Part shown: one piece after another, positions 15,723 to 35,875 of the stretch
Position numbering within the stretch: position 1 is the first letter of the stretch
Layout: each line of letters begins with the position of its first letter
Origin: Candidatus Odyssella sp.
GTDB taxonomy: Bacteria; Pseudomonadota; Alphaproteobacteria; Paracaedibacterales; Paracaedibacteraceae
DNA: 57,122 bases
NCBI GenBank assembly: GCA_020718185.1
Contig: DYSP01000006.1
Location: 1 to 57,122, forward strand
Direction of reading: 5' to 3'
Program-made: the position numbers and the translations under genes
Notes under the pieces: model-generated
Database searches by the model: none
What the model saw: the letters and a program-made list of their open reading frames with translations, nothing else
What the model was told of the DNA's origin: nothing

Positions 15723-15861
15723 GTAGCGGGAAGTATTAAAGGTTAAAGTTGATTTTAAAGTAACCGGAAAGGGACAAAATGGTCAACCACCAATCCTTAA
15801 TATAACAAATATGTGTCATCACTCATTGTTGATTTATAACAAAAGGCTATTATATATAAAA

Positions 15862-15885
15862 TGAGATCATTATGCAATGACCTCA
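15862..15885. repeat. Possible solo terminal repeat of the MITE-like element
   Basis: This 24-nt near-palindrome has arms TGAGATCATT and AATGACCTCA around ATGC. It closely resembles the terminal inverted repeats of the elements at 23861-24001 and 35731-35875. It may be a deletion remnant with the two ends abutted. It lies just upstream of the beta-lactamase gene. Confidence 0.45.
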
Positions 15886-15917
15886 AAATAGATTTCCTAT
15901 TCAGAAGAGAGAGTTTA

Positions 15918-16733
15918 ATGTTATTAAAAAAAATAGTAATATTTCTATGTTTTGGCTTGTTTTCTAGCCATATTGTTGTTGGTGCACAAGTAGATGAGCA
16001 AATTACAGAAGATGTAGATATTGCCCAAATTTTAGAAGAAAATGGGGTTCAAGGAACTGTCATTATTTCATCACTAGATAACAACACGACATATGTACAT
16101 AATCATCAACGTGCTTTGGAAAGATTATCTCCTGCGTCTACTTTTAAAATTATGAATTCTATTATTGCGCTTGAAACGGGTGTGATTGCCGACCAGCATG
16201 AAATCATTAAATGGGATGGGCAAAAGCGCGACTTAGAGGCTTGGAATCAAGACCAAAACCTAAAGTTTGCCTTTAAATTTTCATGCATCTGGTTTTATCA
16301 AGAACTTGCCAAAAAAATTGGCAAAGCAACGTACCTCGACTATTTTAATCGGTTGAATTACGGCAATAAACTTGTTGGCGCGGACGTAACAACGTTTTGG
16401 TTAAAAGATGGGGGCGATTTAAGAATATCACCTTATGAACAAATTGAATTCTTACGTCAGATTTATCAACATCAATTACCAATAGCCGAAAGAACATATG
16501 AAATCTTAAAAGATATCATGCTTGAAGAAGACACTGATAATTATAAAATATATTCAAAAACAGGCGCAGCAACAAAGGATTGGATTGGTCATGGTTGGTA
16601 TGTTGGATATGTCACAACAAATGATCAAGTATGGATTTTTGCGACAAATATTTTAATTGATGGATTGAAAGATTTACCTAAAAGAAAAGCCATCACGATG
16701 GCAGTTTTGAAGAAAAAGGGCATTATATCTTAA
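15918..16733 (+). CDS. Class D (OXA-type) beta-lactamase
   Basis: Starts at ATG 15918 with a signal peptide (MLLKKIVIFLCFGLFSS), giving 271 residues. Class D landmarks are in order: Ser74-Thr-Phe-Lys77 (catalytic Ser and carboxylated Lys), Ser122-Cys-Ile in place of the usual Ser-x-Val, YGN at 148-150, and KTG at 214-216. A KWDG segment matches the OXA KWDG motif. It should act in the periplasm on penicillin-type substrates. A BlaR-type sensor domain is unlikely, as no membrane part precedes it beyond the signal peptide. No mobile element adjoins it except a short repeat upstream, so it looks chromosomal. Confidence 0.92.
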   Translation: MLLKKIVIFLCFGLFSSHIVVGAQVDEQITEDVDIAQILEENGVQGTVIISSLDNNTTYVHNHQRALERLSPASTFKIMNSIIALETGVIADQHEIIKWDGQKRDLEAWNQDQNLKFAFKFSCIWFYQELAKKIGKATYLDYFNRLNYGNKLVGADVTTFWLKDGGDLRISPYEQIEFLRQIYQHQLPIAERTYEILKDIMLEEDTDNYKIYSKTGAATKDWIGHGWYVGYVTTNDQVWIFATNILIDGLKDLPKRKAITMAVLKKKGIIS

Positions 16734-23530: not shown

Positions 23531-23630
23531 CTGTATTTTTTCCTAAATATTTGTCCTTCCAAAATTTTATTTCAAAATTATACTCTTCATGATTGGAAAT
23601 GTGGATTTATAGCATTGAGATTTGAGGCGA

Positions 23631-23694
23631 TTTTTTTGGTTGACCGACAATGCGAGTAGGCTCTCCCTGCGGGGGTCAACCGAAAAAAAGAGCC
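23631..23694. repeat. Long hairpin with possible pseudoknot, function unknown
   Basis: Seven T then GGTTGACC (23631-23645) pair with GGTCAACC, G, seven A (23674-23689) around a 28-nt loop. Inside the loop GGCTCT (23659-23664) is complementary to AGAGCC at 23689-23694, so an H-type pseudoknot is possible. It sits in a noncoding gap between the rpmJ terminator and the TPP riboswitch. It could be a bidirectional terminator, a REP-like palindrome or a small structured RNA. Confidence 0.6.
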
Positions 23695-23810
23695 CAAAGA
23701 TTGATTGATAGAAATTTGTATTTTCATTCATGATGAGTATATATCCTTTTTTAAAAAAACTTCTTGTTGTTATGTATAATTAACGTTATACACAAGCTGA
23801 TCTATATATA

Positions 23811-24043
23811 AAACACCAGGGGCGCTACCACGACATAAGGTAGCTGAGAGATGTCCCTTAAAAGAGATCATTGCATAATGGCTCTTTTGAGTTCTTAACA
23901 GTGTCAATGTGATCCTCAAATCCTCATTTACATAAAGTAAACTCCGGTTTTGCGGTTCTCTCGACACGTTAATTATCTCAAAATATTTCATTTGCAATGA
24001 CCCCTTACAACCTGATCTGGGTTATGCCAGCGGAGGAAGAGTG
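23811..24043 (+). promoter_or_regulatory. TPP riboswitch (THI element) interrupted by an insertion
   Basis: The 5' part has AGGGGCGC (23818-23825), a P3 hairpin TACC/GGTA and the conserved GCTGAGA (23843-23849). The 3' part has ACCCC, AACCTGATCTGGG and TTATGCCAGCGGAGGAAG (to 24039), the thiamine-pyrophosphate-sensing core. The Shine-Dalgarno GGAGGAAG lies within the conserved 3' segment, 6 nt before the ATG of the downstream transporter, so ligand binding should block translation. Between the two halves sits a 141-nt inverted-repeat element instead of the usual few bases. Confidence 0.92.
23861..24001 (+). mobile_element. MITE-like inverted-repeat element, copy 1, inside the TPP riboswitch
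   Basis: The ends are imperfect inverted repeats: GATCATTGCATAATG at 23865-23879, and CATTTGCAATGAC at 23989-24001. The element is flanked on both sides by CCCTTA (23855-23860 and 24002-24007), like a target-site duplication. It is about 90% identical to the copy at 35731-35875, with an identical 43-nt centre (23911-23953). It encodes no transposase, so mobility would depend on an enzyme elsewhere. Confidence 0.75.
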
Positions 24044-24044
24044 A

Positions 24045-25310
24045 ATGAAAAAAATTACATCAAAACGAACAGCCTATTTTAGTTTTCCCAAAACCAATGC
24101 CTTTTGGATGCCGCTTTTAGGAACGCTTGTTGAATATTATGATTATGCTCTTTACGGCTTTACAGCCGTTCTTATTAGCCAGCTATATTTTCCAGCAGTA
24201 GATCCAACCGCCTCATTATTAAAAACCTATGTTGTTTTTGCTTTAGGATCGATTGCTAAACCTATTGGTTCCTTAATTTTTGGATGGATTGGGGATCACA
24301 TGGGGCGAAAAATTGCCCTTCAATGGTCAATACTTGGTATTTTCATTCCAACAACATTGATTGGTCTTTTGCCCACTTATGAAGAATGGGGAATTAGTGC
24401 CACTATTATTTTGATTTTTTGTCGTCTATTTCAGGGGATTTTTTTATCTGGTGAAACAGAGGGTGCGCGCATTTATCTTTATGAAAGCTTTTTAAAAGAT
24501 CGACCTACTCTTGTTAATTGTATTGTAGGGATTAGCTGTTACCTTGGTATTTTTCTTGCATCTTATGCTGTATCTTTTGTTCCTTTAAATGCAGAAACAA
24601 ATACATGGCGAATCCCTTTTTTGATTGGGGGGGCGCTGGGTGGAATAATCTTTATCATTCGTCGTTTTTTAAATGAGTCGACGGATTATTTAGCTTATCA
24701 GCTTCAATCTAAAAATTCAAAAACATCAACTAAAATTTCTAAAAAAGCTTTTTTAGGTACAATATTGCTTTGTGGTGGCGTAGGGGGATTGTATCAACTA
24801 TTTTTTGTTTTTCTCGGTTCTTACTTAAGTAATGTAATGGGGTTTTTTACAGCTGTTCAAATTCAAGCTTTTACGCCCATTATGCTGCTTGTTCACATTA
24901 TTTCCTTGCTGGGTGCGGCATGGCTGGCTGACTATTTTTCACCAAAAAAAGTAATTTCCTGGGGGCTTATTCTAACAATCCCATTAATTTGTTTGCTTGG
25001 GTATCAGCTGTTTTTCAACTGTGTTCGTTTAGAGTTATTTTTAGCCATTTCTGTTTCTTATGCCATGATTACAACACCTGGATTTAATTTAATTATTGCA
25101 AGCGTAGGGGTAGGAAAACGATATCGATTTGTCTCACTTGGTCATGCCTTAGGATCTGTTCTTTTTTCTGGATGTGCGCCGGCAGTGAGTCTATTTTTAT
25201 GGCAACAGACTCATTTAAGTTTTGCGCCAGTTATCCACGCGTTGGCTTTATGTATCTGTGTTCACGGGGGTGTTATCTTACTATGTCAGCCACGTGAGAA
25301 AGACGTATAG
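24045..25310 (+). CDS. MFS transporter (MHS-like), probable thiamine or thiamine-precursor uptake
   Basis: The 421-residue protein has about 12 membrane segments, the MFS loop motif GWIGDHMGRKIAL near residue 80, and the MHS-like opening LGTLVEYYDYALYGF. The TPP riboswitch immediately upstream links it to thiamine economy, so import of thiamine or a precursor is the likely job. The substrate is inferred from the riboswitch alone. No thiamine biosynthesis gene is adjacent. Its 3' end overlaps the convergent tssG gene by 38 nt. Confidence 0.85.
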   Translation: MKKITSKRTAYFSFPKTNAFWMPLLGTLVEYYDYALYGFTAVLISQLYFPAVDPTASLLKTYVVFALGSIAKPIGSLIFGWIGDHMGRKIALQWSILGIFIPTTLIGLLPTYEEWGISATIILIFCRLFQGIFLSGETEGARIYLYESFLKDRPTLVNCIVGISCYLGIFLASYAVSFVPLNAETNTWRIPFLIGGALGGIIFIIRRFLNESTDYLAYQLQSKNSKTSTKISKKAFLGTILLCGGVGGLYQLFFVFLGSYLSNVMGFFTAVQIQAFTPIMLLVHIISLLGAAWLADYFSPKKVISWGLILTIPLICLLGYQLFFNCVRLELFLAISVSYAMITTPGFNLIIASVGVGKRYRFVSLGHALGSVLFSGCAPAVSLFLWQQTHLSFAPVIHALALCICVHGGVILLCQPREKDV

Positions 25311-35730: not shown

Positions 35731-35875
35731 GAAGCCCTTGCCTAATGATTCTTTTGAGCCCTTAACAGTATCAATGCGATCCTCAAATCCTCATTTACAT
35801 AAAGTAAACTCCGGTTTTGCAGTTCTCTTGACATGTTAATTATCTCAAAATATCTCATTATGCAATGGCCTCTTA
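35731..35875 (-). mobile_element. MITE-like inverted-repeat element, copy 2, upstream of acnA
   Basis: Terminal inverted repeats of about 20 nt are visible at 35731-35750 and 35855-35874, matching at about 16 of 20 positions. The 43-nt block 35778-35820 is identical to 23911-23953, and the whole is about 90% identical to copy 1. The central block reads in the same + orientation in both copies, so relative to its neighbour (acnA, minus strand) this copy is opposite to copy 1. Confidence 0.75.

Follow-up and report, generated by a model that had tools for sequence, protein, structure and literature searches.

The stretch of DNA analysed here (the window; 57,122 nt of contig DYSP01000006.1 from a Candidatus Odyssella sp.) carries a thiamine pyrophosphate (TPP) riboswitch aptamer at 23811-24043, whose two halves are collinear and are parted by a 141-nt element (23864-24004). 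All the features of this locus are on the forward strand. Downstream lies a gene (24045-25310) for a 421-aa MFS transporter of the metabolite:H+ symporter type, which matches TIGR00883 (209.7 bits, under that model's own cut-off of 443) as well as Pfam Sugar_tr and MFS_1; its product is a candidate importer of thiamine or of a precursor. The gene upstream of the riboswitch is rpmJ, both here and in a congener (genome G001). A sigma-70-like promoter candidate, TTAAAA-18-TATAAT (23751-23780), agrees with the consensus at 10 of 12 positions; it is a weak candidate, the count of such sites being barely above chance. Between rpmJ and the riboswitch there is also a different repeat of about 160 bp (23561-23720), built on a strong inverted repeat (GGTTGACC...GGTCAACC) and sharing 91% identity with part of contig C50, where the start of the copy adjoins an end of the riboswitch element's family.

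An interrupted TPP aptamer

The 5' half of the aptamer (23811-23863), in which AAAACACCAGGGG is identical in the congener, contains the P2 5' strand AGGGG (23818-23822), P3 (23824-23829 with 23839-23844; pairing probability 0.99-1.00), the conserved CTGAGA (23844-23849) and the ancestral, left-hand P2 3' strand GTCCC (23853-23857). The 3' half (24005-24043), in which GCGGAGGAAGAGTGAATGA is identical in the congener, contains P4 and P5 (CCTGATCTGG...CCAGCGGAGG, 24011-24036), with pairing probabilities of about 0.94 and of 0.98-0.99, and the Shine-Dalgarno sequence GGAGG (24032-24036) within the conserved 3' strand of the aptamer. The core of the Rfam family RF00059 (GGGG, CTGAGA, AACCTGAT and CGKAGG, with helices P2 to P5) is thus all there in the correct order: GGGG, a 6-bp P3 and CTGAGA end at 23849, and AACCTGAT...CGGAGG occupies 24009-24036. 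In the interrupted aptamer as a whole, P3, P4 and P5 are computed to pair at 0.93-1.00. One conserved base is gone: 29 aligned relatives all have an A immediately ahead of CCC that the left P2 strand of the window has lost.

Searched with cmscan, the locus gave two partial matches to RF00059, 36.5 bits for the 3' half and 18.0 bits for the 5' half, both below the gathering cut-off of 54.3 bits. That the 3' half might belong to another RNA class is ruled out by its partial match to the TPP family. We also used a covariance model, R2, trained on 26 TPP riboswitches from within the order, among them one relative with an insert at the place of the optional stem P3a. R2 matched the interrupted region as a single hit (23808-24056, 53.5 bits, E = 6e-14), compared with 79.4 bits for the intact aptamer of the congener; the default search joins the halves, and a search with the filters off splits them in two, probably because of the length limit of the model. 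These results bear out the earlier note, which had read the locus as two halves of one TPP aptamer 141 nt apart.

The empty site in relatives and the duplicated target

The congener has an uninterrupted TPP aptamer (70.5 bits) before the orthologous transporter gene (67% identity), and it reads AAAACACCAGGGG...CTGAGAAATACCCTTATAACCTGATCTGG...GCGGAGGAAGAGTGAATGA. Five further genomes of the same family (G002-G006) likewise have an uninterrupted TPP riboswitch (63-77 bits) directly before a transporter homologue with 40-42% identity. The insert is absent from all of these relatives, so that an insert of the same length common to the group is ruled out. The empty site of the congener, CCC-TTATAA-CC, corresponds in the window to CCC-TTAAAA, then the element, then TTACAACCTG, and this comparison defines the target as TTAMAA, the strand between P2 and P4. 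Its left copy (TTAAAA, 23858-23863) matches the right copy (TTACAA, 24005-24010, which is J2/4; compare TTATAA in the empty site) at five of six positions, with probably one slip in the A-run in addition. The copies being imperfect, later mutation is implied.

The earlier note had also proposed that the insertion duplicated the 3' strand of P2. CCC does occur on both sides of the element, but the duplicated target is TTAMAA and the boundary of the element falls after the right-hand CCC, which rules out target duplication as its source; the right-hand CCC is the end of the element itself.

The inserted element

The element (ends GAGATCATTGCATAATG and CATTTGCAATGACCCC) runs in the riboswitch from GAGATC at 23864 to GACCCC at 24004, the usual right end being GGYCTC. 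About 20 near-full copies, with 86-93% identity, are present in the 1.56-Mb genome, and inverted ends of about 17 bp (GAGRCCATTGCATAATG and CATTATGCAATGGYCTC) are common to them. A perfect 5-bp target duplication flanks 12 of the 19 copies counted (a set that takes in the riboswitch copy and omits one decayed copy), against 0.6% in a control in which left and right flanks were mixed between copies. End-like 17-mers number 66 in the genome and 0 for the control, several of them being single ends or shorter versions; the shorter forms comprise single ends and versions of 22 bp and about 78 bp. The element is predicted to fold as one long hairpin (fold z -5.6); covariation within it says little either way, a two-sided change being seen in only 1 of 44 pairs. 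No copy was detected in the congener, and abundance is confined to the genome of the window; distant relatives occur as one or two copies each in six genomes of the order. The insert is short and multi-copy, with terminal inverted repeats, target duplication and an empty site, and is therefore MITE-like. The dispersed, mobile-like nature that had been suggested for it from the window alone is thereby substantiated. The source assembly is a draft of 52 contigs, 88% complete, and it is the one available genome with this insertion.

Two other members lie in the window. One is a second full copy (35731-35872; 163.3 bits with the element model) flanked by the duplication TTAAA. The other is a 22-bp miniature (15863-15884) made of little beyond the two ends (GAGATCATTATGCAATGACCTC), with a perfect AAAAT duplication; it lies just ahead of a gene for a class D beta-lactamase, and the open frame at 15861-16733 scores above the NCBIfam cut-off for that class (277 vs 250 bits).

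Two predicted alternatives for P2

The right end of the element provides an alternative 3' strand for P2, CCCC-T (24001-24005). Among the 20 copies compared, the riboswitch copy has a 1-nt deletion and a single private base substitution, T to C at 24003, which adjoins the last base of the element and makes its end CCCC. For the observed sequence, ViennaRNA gave the left P2 strand a probability of 0.50 and the right strand 0.49, with ensemble energies of -69.18 and -69.13 kcal/mol. Restoring at 24003 the T found in the other copies with intact ends brought the left strand to 0.99 and the right strand to 0.00, about 7.6 kcal/mol apart. The idea of a mutually exclusive fold, raised from the sequence alone, thus has computational support in the form of two P2 helices of equal energy. 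The GACCTC ends of two other elements in the genome are one step from GACCCC. The argument from 24003, which carries odds of about 1 in 139 by position, was framed post hoc on a single genome.

The two pairings place the element differently. With the left strand paired, which the minimum free energy slightly favours, the hairpin lies in J2/4, an arrangement for which we know of no precedent. With the right strand paired, the hairpin continues P2 without a break in the place of P3a, which supports the helical extension suggested in the earlier note; in this register the base before CCC is C and not the conserved A. Of 907 TPP sequences, 552 have the optional P3a stem, which is predicted to stack on P2 (PMC2258182). 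The R2 alignment likewise reads the insert as P3a and picks the right P2 strand, a preference favoured by the P3a-inserted relative among its training sequences. We infer that the end of the element is being taken over as a P2 strand.

Repeats at the P3a position of other TPP riboswitches

In G015, from another family of the same order, the P3a of a TPP riboswitch holds a different dispersed repeat with 14 matches in its genome. A scan of 84,980 genomes then looked for TPP cores in which the place of P3a is taken up by 135-165 nt; it used an exact pattern and is not a census. Most of the 48 matches were false, a chance GCTGAGA lying upstream and the genuine motif falling within the span. After these had been removed by eye, there were further cases with inserts that are repeats in their own genomes. 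In Serratia, the P3a insert has 29 genome matches and the same insert is found in three species; it seems to resemble ERIC, a resemblance offered as a lead, and the gene behind this riboswitch reads as thiB-like from its translated sequence. P3a inserts with 8 and 5 genome matches were found in Paramesorhizobium and a Mesorhizobium, respectively, and one with 58 matches, mostly partial, in an alphaproteobacterial MAG. An insert in Modicisalibacter (L138) is similar in its core sequence; it was left out of the count, since the only further copy of it was a partial one. The repeats of Serratia and G015 occupy the inside of a P3a stem that already existed, whereas the one in the window creates its stem, P3a being absent from the congener.

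When nine long-insert loci were scanned against Rfam, only that of G015 passed the cut-off. Loci L131, L133, L138, L141, L163, L166 and L167 are long-insert TPP riboswitches below it, with repeats in most of them. A similar hairpin tip, roughly GGAG..AGTTTACTNNNNGTAAATGAGCACC, recurs in L160/L082 (G015), L131, L167, L138 and the element of the window, hinting at one wide superfamily of palindromic repeats.

Discussion

A MITE-like hairpin element, amplified in this lineage, has struck a TPP riboswitch at CCC|TTANAA, between P2 and P4. In the RNA the element is predicted to form one long helix with its ends side by side, which would keep the aptamer halves close. Target duplication left the J2/4 strand in two copies, and the 3' end of the element supplies another 3' strand for P2; if that strand is the one paired, the element would sit in the P3a place, stacked on P2. 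Judging from the family and from the conservation of the core, TPP binding would still stabilise the interrupted aptamer, hide the Shine-Dalgarno sequence at 24032-24036 and lower translation of the transporter. P3 has another sequence than in the congener but remains paired; P4 and P5 are intact; and the segment that holds the Shine-Dalgarno sequence and the start codon is the same as in the congener. Switching has likely been retained. We put the probability of this whole account (insertion of the element, a P3a-like hairpin, a second P2 strand and an aptamer that still responds to TPP) at about two in three. A broader proposal, that P3a domains of TPP riboswitches arise recurrently from mobile palindromic elements and that here a transposon end was co-opted as a new P2 strand by one selected substitution, leaving two balanced and mutually exclusive P2 helices, is offered tentatively, as somewhat less than an even chance.

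The insertion could instead have killed the riboswitch, leaving two recent relics and an unregulated transporter. The sub-threshold Rfam score and the loss of the invariant A from the left P2 strand are what one would see, and the copies, still 86-93% alike, leave room for an insertion so recent that the halves have not had time to decay. Against this, P3 has changed while keeping its pairing; P4/P5 and CTGAGA are intact, as are the Shine-Dalgarno region and the start; and analogous inserts have been kept with an intact core in three Serratia species and two rhizobial genera, which makes a dead riboswitch unlikely. More doubtful still is the proposal that the two P2 helices constitute the switch itself, the left one non-binding, the right one binding, and TPP selecting between them. 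It would account for the equal computed energies and for a balance created by the private substitution at 24003, but such energies are good to 1-2 kcal/mol at best and ignore the ligand and tertiary contacts, and the equality, seen in one genome only, may be a coincidence or a stage towards use of the right strand.

An assembly artefact, in which a repeat-driven misjoin put a copy of the element into an intact riboswitch, is conceivable for an element occurring about 20 times in a draft of 52 contigs that is 88% complete. We consider it very improbable: a misjoin would not join the halves of one aptamer in order and at the correct distance from the start codon, nor would it leave a near-duplicate target at both ends, the riboswitch copy has variants of its own, and the same arrangement is found in other assemblies, isolates among them.

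The riboswitch of the window shares with RF00059 members that have the optional P3a their core sequence, P2 to P5, a Shine-Dalgarno sequence in the 3' strand, a transporter downstream and an additional stem placed after CTGAGA and before the 3' strand of P2. It differs in that its stem is a 141-nt dispersed, mobile-like repeat absent from the congener, in having the CCC strand for P2 twice, and in scoring under the Rfam cut-off. With MITEs and palindromic repeats such as ERIC, Correia elements and Rickettsia palindromic elements (PMC10969869) the element shares a size below 500 bp, inverted ends, an AT-rich target, a short duplication, an RNA hairpin and tens of copies; those elements are mostly intergenic, at transcript ends or in reading frames, whereas this one is inside a structured sensor RNA. 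As for riboswitches, the same review goes no further than speculating that MITEs could form them, and it notes T-box-like motifs in BOX elements. Riboswitches are described as having variable insertions, long non-conserved stem-loops at fixed places that leave the core undisturbed (Barrick and Breaker 2007, PMC2258182); the passages of that paper on such insertions do not name mobile repeats as their source, whereas here the source, its copies and the empty site are visible. Searches of the open-access literature turned up no riboswitch aptamer reported to contain a mobile repeat. The parts, a TPP riboswitch and a MITE, are of known kinds, and their combination with a visible donor, empty site and duplicated target was not found described there.

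To our knowledge, the origin of optional riboswitch stems is mostly unknown. At this locus one can see the donor element along with its other copies, the empty site and the molecular steps of insertion, so the origin of a riboswitch domain becomes directly testable. Similar insertions that arose independently in Serratia, in rhizobia and in other alphaproteobacteria suggest that this is a general route by which riboswitches gain parts. Most of the long-insert TPP riboswitches scanned fall below the Rfam cut-off, and their genes may lack a riboswitch annotation. With interrupted riboswitches passing unnoticed in standard annotation, thiamine regulation may be more widespread in repeat-rich genomes than their annotations show.
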